Assembly: GCF_037975245.1 (NCBI RefSeq)
Contig: NC_092567.1
Location: 26,673,376-26,737,375 of the forward strand
Direction of reading: 5' to 3'
Origin: Apostichopus japonicus
Taxonomy: Eukaryota; Echinodermata; Holothuroidea; Aspidochirotida; Stichopodidae
Length of the DNA stretch: 64,000 nt
Below the pieces are notes generated by a model. That model saw only the letters and a list, made by a program, of their open reading frames with translations. It was not told the origin of the DNA and made no database searches. This document shows, one piece after another, positions 1 through 37,192 of the stretch. How positions within the stretch are numbered: position 1 is the stretch's first letter; each line of letters begins with the position of its first letter. The translations under genes and the position numbers were made by a program.

Positions 1-1097
1 ATGCGTACTTCATACGTGTGCTGTAGTTCCTCAGAAATGTAATGATCTCAAAATATTTATTGTTCTGTGCCTACGCAATGTACAATTGAGCAGAATTTGA
101 CCACAAAATGTCTGCCGTGTCAAGTTCTCACATACTTGAAATTGGCACATTCGCTGATAAGCCAACAATAAGTATATCCATTCATGATTGACTCTGACAG
201 GTCAGGTCCCAGAGAGCTGTGGTATCATGTTGAGGTATTTTTGGTTCTTTTTAGGGAGTAAGAATTTCAAATGCCACAAATATGTGCAAAACTGTGGGGA
301 GGATATTAAAAGCTTAAAAAAAAACACAATTTGATCAGCACATAGCTGAAATGAATTAAAAATCATGGAATATGTAACTCTGCTTCGCTGCAAAAAGTTT
401 AGGTTGCCTGCTGTATCGTTGCTACAGTAGTACTAAGGTTTGTCAAATTTGTAGGTGTGTAATTATATATGAAGCCTTTACTTAACTGTGTATCTAGCCT
501 TGGCCTAACTACTGTATTTATCGTGCACAATCATGACGATATAGTTTTTTGACAAAATTTTTACCTATTTGCAGAGAATCAGCAAATTTCACAGATCACA
601 ATAATAATTGGTTTGACTGTGGCAATGTTTACATTTCATGGTCAAAATTTAAAGTATGGGATGTCATCACCTGGATTCACAAGAGCCACAAGTAAAAAAC
701 AAGCATGGTCTGGATTATTTCTTACCAAAAAAAATAGAAGGAAATTAGAGGGAATCTAAGTGTTACTGTACATTGAGTAATTGAAATAACATGGGGGAGT
801 GAGTAAGGTACAGTAGCTATGTGTTTGGAGTAATATACTGTTGAGACAAAATGAGTAAGGAAACCAGTGTAGGATGATGTATTACCATAGATGTCTTGTA
901 ACCTGCAAAAATAAAATACAATGGGAGCACAAGGCATAGTCATAAAGTTACCAATGATGACTACAAAATCCATAATTCTACTTATAAATGCTTATTGTGT
1001 ACATCTACAATAATTTACAATATTCAGCCTGCATGGTTATTCACTGATTCTTACAGCATTTGCTTCCCAAAAATAATCTTGGTGTAGTCCAGTCAAG
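1..1097. other. Upstream flank of WDR45, no gene recognised
   Basis: AT-rich sequence before the WDR45 start codon. The open frames here are short and resemble no family I know. It presumably contains the WDR45 promoter and 5' leader, but I could not identify a TATA box, initiator or untranslated exon with confidence. Confidence 0.4.
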
Positions 1098-4000
1098 ATG
1101 GCTTTGAGAGGAGTTTATTCCCTGCAATTTAATCAGGATCAAGGTAATGTATTTAATTCTGCTTTAATTTACAGTCCATTTACACTTAGAATTGTTGTTT
1201 TCAAACTTTATCCACCAAATGCTTAATTAGATATCTTGGTTGTATGTTGATAGGGGTTGATTGGGATTCTAGTATAATGTTTACTTATGTTCCCTTAAAT
1301 ACTGTTGTTAATAGGGGTTGATTGGGATTCTAGTATAATGTTTACTTATGTTCCCTTAAATACTGTTTTTGATAGGGGTTGATTGGGATTCTAGTATAAT
1401 GTTTACAGTATGTTCCCTTAAATACTGTTGTTGATAGGGGTTGATTGGAATTCTAGTATAATGTTTACTTATGTTCCCTTAAATACTGTTGTTGATATGG
1501 GTTGATTGGGATTCTAGTATAATGTTTACTTATGTTCCCTTAAATACTGTTGTTGATAGGGGTTGATTGGGATTCTAGTATATGTTTACTTATGTTCCCT
1601 TAAATACTGTTGTTGATATGGGTTGATTGGGATTCTAGTATAATGTTTAATTATGTTCCCTTAAATACTGTTGTTGATAGGGGTTGATTGGGATAATGTT
1701 AACTTATGTTCCCTTACAGGTAAATACTGTTGTTGATATGGGTTGATTGGGATTCTAGTATAATGTTTACTTATATTTTCCCTTAAATACTGTTGTTGAT
1801 AGGGGTTGATTGGGATTCTAGTATAATGTTTACTTATGTTCCCTTAAATACTGTTGTTTAATGTAAGCACTTAATGATTTGTTCGCTCTCTAATTTTTAT
1901 GAATATTGCAATGTAACTACTTTTGATTTCTCTTCTCTGGAAAATTATGAAAAAATAACTTTGTTTTACATTTTTTGTTTGATCAGGATGTTTCTCATGT
2001 GCGATGGAATCTGGTGTTAGAATCTATAATGTAGAGCCCCTCGCTCCAAGGCTTCGATTAGGTTTGTATATGAATTAATTTATTGACCACAACCATGTTT
2101 TGTACTGTTCAAAATAAGTGGAGACTTGTGGTAACTATGAAACATCATTTTCTCTAATCCTGTATATCAGATATATTCTTTGGTAAAATGTTGGCTCGTT
2201 ATTTTTCGGATCATCTATCGCTAATATGAAGCACTGAGCTATTCTTTTAAATTCAGTTTTAATACTCATAGGACTCTCACACACATCAAAGTTTGATAAA
2301 TTTCAGTCTTACTGTATTTTTAGTAAATTAATTGCCAATCAATTCCACAAATTCATACAGTGTATACTAATGATATCCAACTTCCAGTTGTGTAATAATG
2401 AACTGCCAATATCTGCTACTTGTTTCATATTTTAGAGAAAGATGTTGTTGGCAGTGTCACCAGAATAGAAATGCTCAATAGAACCAACCTAATTGCTATT
2501 GTCGGTAAGTAAAAAGATGACCCACCCATTAGTATCTTTATGTGACAGTGATGTAGACAAGTAGTTTTATCCAAGTAACTGGTACTTCAGAGTTTCTTAA
2601 TTCTGGAGTACCAGCGTCCAATTACTTCTCTCTTTTTTATCTGATTCCCAAACTTTAAAAATCCAAGAACAGAGTACAAATATGTTTTTATCAGAGTACC
2701 TTTGATGTATTTAATATAAAAGAGCTTTGTGCTTGTAACTGCTACTGTTGTTGATTAAACAATTGAATATAGAAATGATTTCTTGGACCTTGTTATTCTG
2801 TGCCAATTTCGGTCAATATGTCTCAATACAGTATTTTCAAAAACTCCTCATATTGGAATCGCATGTTAGAAGTATTTTTTTACTGAGATGAACATACTGT
2901 TTTGCAAGAAAGGCATTTTTAAGTGAGCAAAGGGTACTTGAAATTTAGTACAAGTACTTTAACATCTGAATATGAGTACCAAATGATGAGTACAGATACG
3001 TTTTAATACTCAAGTACTCAAAAGTGAGCACAAGTACTTGCAAAGATTATGCAAGTACTTGCAAAGATTATGCAAGTACTTTTTAAGTACAATGACGCTA
3101 ATATACAGTACGAAGCATGCCTGGCGTCAACCCTTGTGAAAAGCTCCTAAATTTTCCTCATGGAGTGATTTTGTAAGGCAAATTTAAATATTAAATGGGA
3201 AAATTGTAATTTTACCAAAAGGTGTTTCTCTTTTGTTAAACTTCTTTAGAAGTGAATATTAGGCTTTACTGGTTTACAATTTATGTTGCCTAATATTTTT
3301 CGCTTCCAATATGAAACATCCGGTTACATTTATTTTATTTCAGGAGGAGGAAAAATGCCAAAGTTTGATGAAAACACAGTCCTCATTTGGGATGATTTTA
3401 TGAAGAAATTTGTCCTAGAGTTGACATTTCCAGCTTGGGTCCTAAATGTGAAACTCAGAAAAGATAAGTAAGTATAGTAATGGTCATGTTTGCTTCGAAA
3501 GGCACGCATAATTTGTCTGAAAGTTGAAAAAAAAAAATTAAACACAACTGCTCAATTTTCATATATATTACATTGATTCCCTGTTCTGTTAACACCCTCC
3601 ACCTCTTCCCATACCCAAGTTTCTTTGTCTGTCTTCCTCCTTTTGTTTTAATAATTGAAGTAGTTAATTACAGTTTCCTCAATTTAGTCCTGTACTCTAC
3701 TAAATTTTGACCACATTGGAAGCACACTACAGCCATGATCAAAGCTTTAGTAGGTATTTCCTGAACTCTGTTTTACACATCTACTGTTTTATTTTCTTTC
3801 TCTCTCTCTCTTTAGGATAGTTGTGGTTCTCTGCAACCAAATATATGTATATAGTTTTCCAAATGATCCACAAAAGCTTTTCACATTTGACACCAGGCCA
3901 AATCCTCAAGGTAAAGAATTTTTTTTTCTTTTTCTTTTTTCTGACAGTTTCAAAGTAAATGTATACCTCTTGATTGTAGGTGTAATTTCTTCCTCCAAAA

Positions 4001-22114: not shown

Positions 22115-22367
22115 CAGGGGCGTAGGAAAAGAAATCTCGGAAATCTAGGAAAGAAAAAAATCTCATTTGGAGCACCAAATTGCATCTAAGGCCAGGTGAA
22201 AATGCAAATGGAGTGGGTGTTGAAGTGTGCTACATTGCACCACATTGCATCTGAGGCCACCTGGAAATGCCAAAAAAATTCCACCCCCTTCCCTTGGACC
22301 CCCCCCCCCCCGGCCGGCCATCAGTCTTTAGCCCCCCCCCCCTCACTCAAAAATTCCTACGCCACTG
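22115..22367. mobile_element. hAT-type MITE, CAGGGGCGTAGGAA ends
   Basis: A 253-bp element with ends CAGGGGCGTAGGAA and TTCCTACGCCACTG. A perfect 8-bp duplication TATACCTG is at 22107-22114 and 22368-22375. The interior is the inverse of the related copy at 23452. Confidence 0.9.
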
Positions 22368-22593
22368 TATACCTGATTTTTTATTCAAAATACGTGTAGG
22401 TGCAAACTACAGGCGAAGGCCGGTTTGCATTGGGCTCAGCTTTTCATTTCCATTTTATTCGTTTACCTTTAGTTTTCTACTTCTTTTATGATTTTTTTAC
22501 ATGTTGGCTCTTACATTCAATTTTATTATTGCATTTACACCTATGTTTTCTTTTTCTAGCAATTGGGGAAGATAAGCCTCGACAGTCCGAGCT

Positions 22594-24616
22594 TATGGCA
22601 AGCCGTTTTAACATTTACCTCGCGATTCGACTTAAGTCGAATACATTTCACTTAAGTGGAATTCAATTTCACTTAAGCAGAATACTATTTAACTTAAGTG
22701 GAATTCTATTTCACTTAAGTGGAATACCATTCCACTTAAGCTTAATTGTATTTTACTTAAGCTGAATTCATCAACTTGTCACTGCATTTTACTTAAGCTA
22801 AATTCTATTTCACTTAAGTGGAATTGCATTCCACTTAAGTGGAATTGTATTCCACTTAAGTGGAAATGCATTTCACTTAAGTGGAATTGTATTCTACTTA
22901 AGTGGAATACAATTCCACTTAAGTGGAGGGTCCTGTCTATTTCACTTAAGTGGAATACAATTCCACTTAAGTGGAAATGCATTCCACTTAAGTGAAATGT
23001 GATTGGATAGTCTATTTCACTTAAGTGGAATGTGATTGGCTAGTCTATTCCACTTAAGTGGAATGTGATTGGCTAGTACATTTACCGCCAAATTTTACCC
23101 ATGCCTTTGCGCGCCATTATAAACAACTTGCCGCGATACGTGTACGTACGTACGTGGTGTCGATATGTGCACAATGAATATCGGCTGTCCATCGGGATCC
23201 AGCTAGCACTTAACATCCGTGCAAGGTGTGTACGTACGTACCTGACCTGGTACCTGACGAATACCATTACCAAAATAAAGCCATGGCAAATACATTATAA
23301 GTGGTTGGAGCTACAGCCGAAAACGCATTGACAAGGGCAAGAAAACGTTTTACTTTTTGTGGATTTGGGGTTTTGGATGGAATCTTTTATTTCGTCAAAA
23401 GTTTCACTATCTAAAAAATTACAAATTCTGCCTTTATTACTTAAACAAGATCAGTGGCGTAGGAAGGTACTTTTGAGTGGGGGGGCTGAAGACTGATGGC
23501 CGGCCTGGGGGAGGGGTCTAAGGGGAGGGGGTGTCCCCCTCCCCTTTGGATTTTTTTTGCATTTCCAGGTGGCCTCAGATGCAATTTGGTGCAATATAGC
23601 ACACTTCAACACCCACTCCATTTTGTAAAGAATTTTGCATTTTCACCTGGCCTTAGATGCAATTTGGTGCTTCAAATGAGATTTTTTTCTCATTTGGAAA
23701 TGAAAAAGGGGTTTTCTGACTTGCGGAGCGGGGGGGGCGGAACGATACTTCCGCCCCCCATATTTTTCACTGGGGGGGGCTGGCGCCCCCCCCAGCCCCC
23801 CCCCCCCGGTTCCTACGCCCTTGAACAAGATGTAAGTCGCCTCTGTTGTGCATCATACTGATTGTTCCCCTGTGCAAGTGAGGAAACAACACTTCGAATT
23901 GTGTCTCTAACAACAATTATTTGATCGCATTCCAGCAATGTTAGATGTGAATGATTAGCCGTAGCCATGATGTACACGTGCAACGAGGATCGACTAAATC
24001 ATCATATGTGATGAGCAATTGAATGCGTTACGACGAACAATACCCTAAATTGTATTTATATGTAAGCCACATATCAACATTTCCACTTAAGTGGAATTGT
24101 ATTTTACTAAAGCAGAATAGAATTCCACTTAAGTGAAATTGACGCCCAAAAGATGTTATTCCACTTAAGTGAAATTGAATTCCACTTAAGTGAAATTGAA
24201 TTCCACTTAAGTGGAATACATTTCCACTTAAGTGGAATTGTATTTCACTTAAGTGGAAATGCATTCCACTTAAGTGGAATTGTATTCCACTTAAGTGAAA
24301 TAGATGGGCTATTTAGCTTAAGTGGAATACAATTCCACTTAAGTGGAAATGTATTCCACTTAAGTGAAATACAATTCCACTTAAGTGGAATGCAATTCCA
24401 CTTAAGTGGAATTCATTTCCACTTAAGTGAAATAGAAATGTCCATTTCTACTTAAGTGAAATTGAATTCCACTTAAGTGAAATTGAATTCCACTTAAGTG
24501 GAATACATTTCACTTAAGTGGAATTCCATTTCACTTAAGTAGAATGTATTCCACTTAAGTGAAATGTATTCGACTTAAGTCTAATTGCGAGGTAAATGTT
24601 AAAACGGCTTGCCATA
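22594..24616. mobile_element. TIR element made of 21-bp-spaced CTTAAG palindromes
   Basis: A 2,023-bp element. Its ends TATGGCAAGCCGTTTTAAC are inverted repeats; similarity continues about 65 bp inward with few mismatches. A direct CGAGCT lies outside each end (22588-22593, 24617-24622), a candidate 6-bp target duplication. Inside each end is an array of palindromes of consensus TTCCACTTAAGTGGAA: about 19 CTTAAG cores at 22630-23065 and about 22 at 24085-24581, commonly 21 bp apart. The middle carries the hAT-type MITE at 23452-23823 and no convincing gene. I cannot assign a superfamily. Confidence 0.88.
23452..23823. mobile_element. hAT-type MITE nested in the palindrome element
   Basis: A 372-bp element with ends CAGTGGCGTAGGAAGG and GGTTCCTACGCCCTTG. 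A perfect 8-bp target duplication AACAAGAT flanks it (23444-23451, 23824-23831). Long G and C runs sit near both ends. It is the same family as 22115-22367 in the opposite orientation. Confidence 0.9.
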
Positions 24617-24622
24617 CGAGCT

Positions 24623-25260
24623 ACCCTCTCAAAATGACCTATATACTTACCCTCGAAAATACTTACATGACTATCTTGAATGACGCTATCTTCACACGGT
24701 AACAATAACACCTAGATGCCACCAATCATATGACGGTCCATCGAGGTAAATGAATCATTCACCTCGCTGTGACGGTCTAGGTTGGGCTGATTGTATAGCT
24801 TCCGCGTCAAATTAACAAACTCCCAAAGTAAGTGAAATTTCGGCACAACAGCTCAGCTCTACCGTGTAAAATAGCGTTTTTGTGTGGACACTATATATTG
24901 CGCATAGCTCGTTCGAACATATGTTGTTTTGTACATAAAGGGCTCGATACTATATCCAGTTTATAATAACACTCACATGATGTTTGATCATCAGTAAATA
25001 CGTAACAATGCTATTTGTGCGAACAATAACACAGTGACAAAGAAACTTACCACAATCTGCACGCTCGTGAGAACTTCACTGTGATTTGCTCGTTCAGGTG
25101 ATATGTTCCAAGCTATATGCCTACTTGTACAAAATTTGACTGACTAAATCAAGCAAAGACTGAAAGAGTATTGGAACAGTTTAAAGACATTTCTTTGAAC
25201 GGCTGATCCGACTACACATAGTATTCAAGTATTAATCGTCGTGTAGCTTTAACTTTAAAA
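24623..25260. promoter_or_regulatory. Upstream region of the cathepsin D-like gene
   Basis: About 640 bp between the palindrome element and the protease start codon. It should contain the promoter. I see no unambiguous TATA box or known motif cluster, so this call rests on position only. Confidence 0.35.

Positions 25261-37192
<11,932 letters not shown>

Follow-up and report, generated by a model that had tools for sequence, protein, structure and literature searches.

Helically phased palindrome arrays at the ends of an IS3EU-type transposon lineage in Apostichopus japonicus: candidate sites for transposase dimers

The window analysed here, a 64,000-nucleotide stretch of the Apostichopus japonicus genome, contains 56 copies of CTTAAG against 19.6 ± 4.45 expected from dinucleotide shuffles. 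Forty-one of them lie within positions 22594 to 24616, where the same expectation, scaled to 2,023 bp, is ~0.6. What is this structure, and what might so many palindromes do in it? A first-pass annotation, made from the sequence of the window, had counted about 41 CTTAAG in 2 kb, with one or fewer predicted by chance, and had described two facing arrays inside long inverted ends, inserted as a unit with a 6-bp duplication. All of this was borne out (Table 1). The interval is a 2,023-bp insertion with long inverted ends whose tips agree at 30/30 bases, and the similarity runs on through the arrays, of 19 and 22 palindromes, at 76% over 512 columns; CGAGCT stands on both sides. The further description, an element made of palindromes, applies to the two arrays and fails for ~640 bp of non-array sequence, which includes a relic of a transposase first exon, and for a nested hAT-like insertion. 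The relic is 46% identical over 50 aa to the 21.4-kb family-A element described below; another comparison gave E = 5e-6, and exon-1 identity is only 40–46% across the comparisons made. The hAT element Hermes makes target-site duplications of 8 bp. Elsewhere in the window, at 22116-22367, lies a second copy of the hAT-like short element found nested in the insertion (GCGTAGGAA..TTCCTACGCC; boundaries by eye).

Table 1. Parts of the window element, and the HECT-like gene of related loci (positions in the window unless a locus is named)
Feature	Position	Strand	Basis
Left target-site duplication, CGAGCT	22588..22593	.	sequence
Left terminal inverted repeat, first 30 bp (TATGGCAAGCCGTTTTAACATTTACCTCGC)	22594..22623	+	identity of the two tips
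Left array, 19 CTTAAG palindromes; first core starts 37 bases from tip	22631..23058	+	
Non-array middle, left part	23078..23443	.	
Inner part of exon-1 relic as in copy L001, aligned	23367-23443	-	
Left target duplication of nested insertion, AACAAGAT	23444..23451	.	
Nested 372-bp hAT-like insertion (CAGTGGCGTAGG..CCTACGCCCTTG), splits the exon-1 relic	23452..23823	.	
Right target duplication of nested insertion, AACAAGAT	23824..23831	.	
Relic of transposase first exon	23825..23968	-	similarity to 21.4-kb family-A element
Right array, 22 CTTAAG palindromes	24086..24579	-	
Right terminal inverted repeat, 30 bp, same as left	24587..24616	-	identity of the two tips
Right target-site duplication, CGAGCT	24617..24622	.	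sequence
HECT-like gene, locus L031	8342-9415	-	
HECT-like gene, locus L032	8720-9811	-	
HECT-like gene, locus L035	9368-10000	+	

Searching the 671.6-Mb genome with the 30-bp end, at up to two mismatches, gave 221 + 231 matches (reversed control, 0), and TTCCACTTAAGTGGAA gave 1,150 (control, 1). The first-pass annotation had proposed such a search to separate an element from a local satellite, and dispersed copies were the outcome. Twenty loci were taken among the 100 end matches listed, chosen to include long pairs and lone ends. Both ends were present at 18 of the 20 (L006 and L007 have one end only), and 13 of these 18 copies measure 1.40–1.65 kb. In the middle, agreement with the window copy is mostly 93–98% and at its lowest 86–88%. 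The order of spacings, odd steps included, recurs among copies, which indicates that the arrays descend from one ancestor. The three longest-looking of these loci (L001, L006 and L007) yielded no transposase ORF. Exact 27-bp ends without a C at the CTTAAG position, considered as a sign of an autonomous element, numbered only two, and both resemble indel mutants. L006 holds a 933-aa ORF that, by eye only, resembles a Penelope-type reverse transcriptase with a GIY-YIG end.

Across families, the 6-bp target-site duplication was exact in 25 of 33 end pairs, four further pairs having one mismatch and four having two or more; two pairs on contig C12 share flanks and are not independent. None of the 33 extends the duplication to 7 bp, and a mismatched-pairing control gave 13/1,056. 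One pair with two or more mismatches (L003) had been scored with a neighbour's end; using the inner end, TGCACG is exact. This copy is inserted in the middle of another copy, with TGCACG duplicated. When its flanks were joined with one TGCACG, they aligned across the junction with 15 of 20 other sequences (the window and 19 loci); the single gap, of 7 bp, starts by eye 3 bp past the junction. The joined empty site of the nested hAT-like insertion likewise aligned along its whole 80 bp in 14 of 19 other loci, and two further loci aligned with 77 and 73 bp of it. Dispersed copies with target-site duplications, together with one copy nested in another, rule out a local satellite. Seventeen of the 25 exact duplications, all families taken together, end in CG, which indicates a target preference. 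At C1:11141217-11147987 there is a dense cluster of nested or tandem element ends and palindromes, perhaps a satellite in the making.

Within the arrays of the window copy, 27 of 39 steps are 21 bp and four are 20 bp; the remaining eight are 27 (two), 29, 33 (two), 36 (two) and 42 bp, the last spanning one unit with an altered core. The first-pass claim that every palindrome faces the same side of the helix thus holds within blocks (31/39 steps of 20–21 bp) and fails across whole arrays, where 27–42-bp steps intervene. Measured from the tip, the first core is at 36–38 bp in 77 of 81 end matches, a set that includes duplicated loci. The four off register comprise one match (57) whose first core is mutated and three tip-like matches within elements.

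To which superfamily does the element belong? In the parts of the published descriptions drawn on here, IS3EU elements have TA..TA tips and a target-site duplication usually of 6 bp (PMC10045372), and those of rust fungi have TAYGG..CCRTA tips and inverted repeats longer than 30 bp (PMC12730594). The window copy and families A, C and D carry TATGG..CCATA tips, the duplications counted above are of the same length, and the terminal repeat exceeds 30 bp, the alignment continuing past the identical tip through the arrays. Families A, C and D also have a DDE transposase, the exact parent of the window copy not being among them. The first-pass annotation knew no named superfamily with this design; the matching termini, the duplication length and the relatives' transposase point instead to IS3EU. 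We consider it likely that the window copy belongs to an IS3EU-type cut-and-paste lineage as a non-autonomous member that has lost internal sequence, and that the palindromes of this lineage are sites for transposase dimers.

The transposase of the relatives matches Pfam rva_4, a DDE integrase-core transposase. Scored exon by exon, the genome contains at least 143 rva_4 matches (150 of 224 candidates scored), with scores up to 256.9 bits, and in all six cores measured 34 residues separate D and E, a DD(34)E arrangement. Matches to NCBIfam IS481/IS3 models were weak and far under the cut-offs (E = 1.4e-7 in family E, 0.0016 in D and 0.005 in C), and families A and F gave no such match. A large share of the rva_4 matches listed falls, by eye, on contig C17, which may be a repeat-rich or sex-linked chromosome.

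The DNA around 14 rva_4 loci, labelled A to N, was examined. The longer, transposase-bearing relatives that the first-pass annotation had suggested looking for are present in the genome, elements of 21–26 kb with related tips, arrays and a DDE core. A family A element at C16:5792413-5813831 is 21,419 bp long, has the duplication CGAACC and carries arrays of 20 and 23 CTTAAG on either side of its rva_4 gene; its tip is identical to the window tip at 29/30 bases. A second copy on C1 measures 22,667 bp (CGGCCG). On C12, family D has elements of 26.0 and 20.8 kb with GATATC arrays at both ends (8 or 11 palindromes at one, 28 at the other) and rva_4 matches between. These two, which share flanks and the duplication AGTACG, are probably one duplicated insertion. 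For the C (L031) and D (L032) loci, a further 8 kb of DNA did not reveal the right end. No autonomous parent of the window subfamily, which would combine CCACTTAAGTGG arrays with an rva_4 gene, was found, and the middle of the window copy gave no DNA match to the family-A loci tested, which leaves derivation from family A itself unsupported; the window copy is most readily explained as having arisen by deletion from a sister of family A. A 17.7-kb interval at C14:8561862-8579598, considered as an autonomous element, was rejected because its left tip is that of a 244-bp CTTAAG element with the duplication ATTCCC and its right tip that of a second short array, which has a diverged left tip but shares spacings and right flank with the first; the pair is probably a duplication.

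Arrays of at least nine palindromes occur at four of the 14 transposase loci (A, C, D and G) and short ones at two; at eight none was seen. The core is ACTTAAGT in A, AGATATCT in C and TGATATCA in D and G. Three short elements of family C, of 403, 440 and 571 bp, contain 16, 18 and 23 palindromes and little else apart from the tips, and the target-site duplication of each is exact; two 3.1-kb elements of family D have 21–28 GATATC per end. Family G showed nine palindromes at the single end seen (L053); only the position of this array, 7.4 kb from the rva_4 match on C12, connects the two. Family F ends have four ACGCGT palindromes (steps 19, 23 and 19) and family H ends two (step 21), family E has 22-bp direct repeats without a clear palindrome, and family I has a tip and lacks an array. 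At the remaining six loci (B and J–N) no recognisable tip was found in the surrounding DNA examined. The C tip gave 296 + 328 genome matches and the D tip 122 + 122, with controls at 0. At L042, two family-H tips stand head to head, at 1045 (-) and 1100 (+), 55 bp apart, each with its first ACGCGT at 36 bp.

Are the arrays functional, or are they by-products of an IS3EU derivative, in which one subterminal site was tandemly duplicated, spread with the copies and is dispensable for transposition? A single ancestral array predicts that odd spacings (27, 29, 33, 36) recur in other copies, as they do, and array length differs widely among families. Elements with few palindromes also have exact target-site duplications: the 244-bp element has eight intact palindromes, and with the F and H ends, at four and two, it indicates that long arrays are not needed for mobility. 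We nevertheless regard the by-product reading as unlikely. The A/T flanks of the units are conserved and the bases between flanks and core vary, unlike the result of simple duplication; the distance from tip to first core is kept across families with different cores; and at least nine palindromes are found in four families, at both ends of full-length elements in A and D. Family C shows both-end arrays in short elements only, and family D shows them in the C12 loci and the 3.1-kb elements.

The layout of the units argues for sites read by a dimer. In the window copy and in families A and C, positions 7–9 bp from the centre carry 1.4–2.0 bits and positions 5–6 bp from it 0.4–1.1 bits, and in family D (units of L032 and L049) the base 5 bp from the centre is the most variable; the unit sets were picked by their 6-bp core and are hence informative outside it only. 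Judged by sequence, the conserved A/T flanks with variable bases between would fit the dimer sites that the first-pass annotation had suggested. At 5 bp from the centre, T/A is the commonest choice in family-A palindromes, where those of the window copy have C/G. Should the arrays act instead as hairpins or cruciforms, the arms outside the core would be expected to pair. One strand of the right array does form a strong DNA fold (z = –18.5), but so would any array of palindromes. Arm complementarity at 4–8 bp from the centre, however, was not above that of shuffled half-sites in any of the four sets (window copy, 165 vs 167.1; A, 150 vs 146.7; C, 186 vs 201.0, where it was lower; D, 135 vs 138.9). 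Two single positions stood above the shuffles, one in the window copy at 5 bp from the centre (p = 0.01) and one in C at 11 bp (p = 0.007); these p-values are rough, as the units are related by duplication. Because the arms are no more complementary than shuffled half-sites, two protein half-sites are favoured, and we think it very unlikely that the arrays work as folded DNA.

A host protein might also be the reader. Both strands of the palindrome CACTTAAGTG contain TTAAGTG, in keeping with the Nkx2.5 consensus T(C/T)AAGTG as given in the part of PMC3322445 drawn on here; the element has 68 such sites and the remaining ~62 kb of the window 17. The palindromes would then be sites for an NK2-type homeodomain factor, and the copies enhancers or repressor-bound islands. 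Sister families, however, use AGATATCT, TGATATCA or ACGCGT in a like layout, and a shared host factor cannot explain such a design. We therefore judge this quite improbable as an account of the arrays.

The transposases of A, C, D and G themselves contain an exon with a GRP arm followed by a helix-turn-helix. Against Pfam HTH_7 ('resolvase', cut-off 23.8) the D segment scored 25.2 bits, over the threshold, and those of A and C (22.0 each) and G (15.6) fell under it. Compared with solved structures, the D segment had two matches, neither significant, to 2lvs (E = 0.14) and to the Hin-DNA complex 1hcr (E = 0.75). Hin is a serine recombinase whose arm enters the A/T-rich minor groove beside the major-groove helix, and the conserved A/T triplets of the units would suit this mode of binding. 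The GRP arm, the helix-turn-helix and the symmetric DNA sites are alike in the two systems, at weak similarity. In families E, F and H the segment is related but reads RG(A/S)P where the others have GRP. F and H share a core and have similar helices; D and G share TGATATCA and differ in their presumed recognition helices, which argues against a simple helix-to-core code, and over the seven families the relation of helix to core is strongly clade-structured.

Another protein of the element could be the binder. Opposite the transposase in A, C and D lies a HECT-like gene (Table 1; Pfam HECT, 3.6e-10 in C and 8.8e-8 in D); the opposing exon of family A gave no HECT match, yet is 41% identical to C over 186 aa. 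The product of such a gene might bind the palindromes and regulate the element, and its position in all three families speaks for it. The four ORFs scanned, which cover part of the gene, contained no DNA-binding domain, and the transposase itself has a helix-turn-helix, so we find this improbable. The gene, of ubiquitin-ligase type, may be a passenger acting on host control. In family A, a tandem array of a ~161-bp unit lies between the transposase and the HECT-like gene (L029, ~650–3060).

The comparison of sites and protein suggests that the arrays are candidate transposase-dimer sites, docking strips for the enzyme that moves the element. The terminal ~30 bp would be the inverted repeat at the cut site, and each palindrome would take one transposase dimer through its Hin-like arm and helix-turn-helix, the core being read in the major groove and the A/T triplets 7–9 bp from the centre in the minor groove. 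Since the first site keeps its distance from the tip and later ones are mostly spaced two helical turns apart, the dimers would sit on one face of the DNA, and the array could raise both end recognition and the local concentration of transposase. From family to family the tip stays similar and the core word differs. A bolder reading, which we hold to be less likely than not, is a two-layer end code in this animal lineage, in which a conserved cut-site tip would be backed by a helically phased array of as many as 28 dimer sites at each end, the transposase would form a filament-like complex on it, and the core word would be swapped together with the Hin-like domain, so that each family and its short derivatives would answer to their own transposase only.

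How much of this has precedent? The TU elements of sea urchins are echinoderm elements of the foldback type, with short tandem repeats (15 bp) in long inverted ends and 8-bp target-site duplications, and are likened here by general description. Polinton/Maverick elements, which have an integrase plus polymerase and capsid genes, agree in their 6-bp duplication when compared by this feature alone. The window copy belongs structurally to the Foldback type, with long inverted repeats made of tandem repeats and a non-autonomous middle; PMC4079207 mentions foldbacks of sea urchins. Among published elements, the nearest precedent for the arrays is Galileo. As far as the parts of PMC3688188 and PMC4079207 used here describe, Galileo and Foldback-like elements likewise have long inverted ends with internal tandem repeats and non-autonomous forms, and Galileo has conserved ~40-bp tips and family-specific long inverted repeats with several transposase binding sites (PMC3688188). 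It differs in being a member of the P superfamily with a THAP domain, and in having sites at ~70, 561–577 and 701–718 bp from the end rather than dense, helically phased palindromes; the relatives' exons scanned contained no THAP match and have rva_4 and a helix-turn-helix instead. In Hermes, according to the part of PMC10368747 drawn on, BED domains bind a quasi-palindromic AAGT-type pair beside the tip and need an A/T-rich region; it belongs to another superfamily, has few sites and uses a BED zinc finger rather than a helix-turn-helix. Given the parallels with Galileo and Hermes, the kind of arrangement is already known. IS3EU and GingerRoot elements share with the present lineage the tips, duplication length, inverted-repeat length and DDE core set out above, and also a second gene opposing the transposase, which in fungi encodes an alpha-kinase, with TET/JBP between (PMC10045372, PMC12730594); the phased arrays at both ends and the HECT-like gene are absent from those parts of the published descriptions. 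The PMC literature searched, with Repbase Reports lying outside it, gave no account of such arrays in an IS3EU setting, of their density, of helical phasing or of a core that changes from family to family. The palindrome array thus looks new as a design of this lineage.

Effects on neighbouring genes were also raised by the first-pass annotation, which placed the element 0.6–2.7 kb upstream of a cathepsin gene. Aspartic-protease ORFs (Pfam Asp, cathepsin D-like) do lie downstream, at 30424-30657 and 32519-32815, but no closer than ~5.8 kb; no Pfam match was obtained for a possible signal-peptide ORF at 25222-25407. Elsewhere in the assembly, contig C29 (14745-31219) carries COX1-like pieces with TGA codons, which may represent a copy in the nucleus, another mitochondrial contig or contamination. 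COX1 on contig C35 fits NCBI code 9 (TGA=W, AAA=N, AGA=S, ATA=I) at positions that we take to be conserved, and its sequence resembles COX1 of echinoderms.

In this lineage one kind of catalytic core and similar tips are combined with different palindrome words, which amounts to a natural experiment on how transposases are matched to their ends. It bears on why Foldback-like elements have long repetitive ends, a question left open in the part of PMC3688188 drawn on here. The sites are short and dense, and binding is therefore approachable with a single domain. For the host, the matches to the Nkx2.5 consensus are a lead, read from sequence: if host factors also bind TTAAGTG, the dispersed copies could have spread ready-made clusters of sites through the genome.
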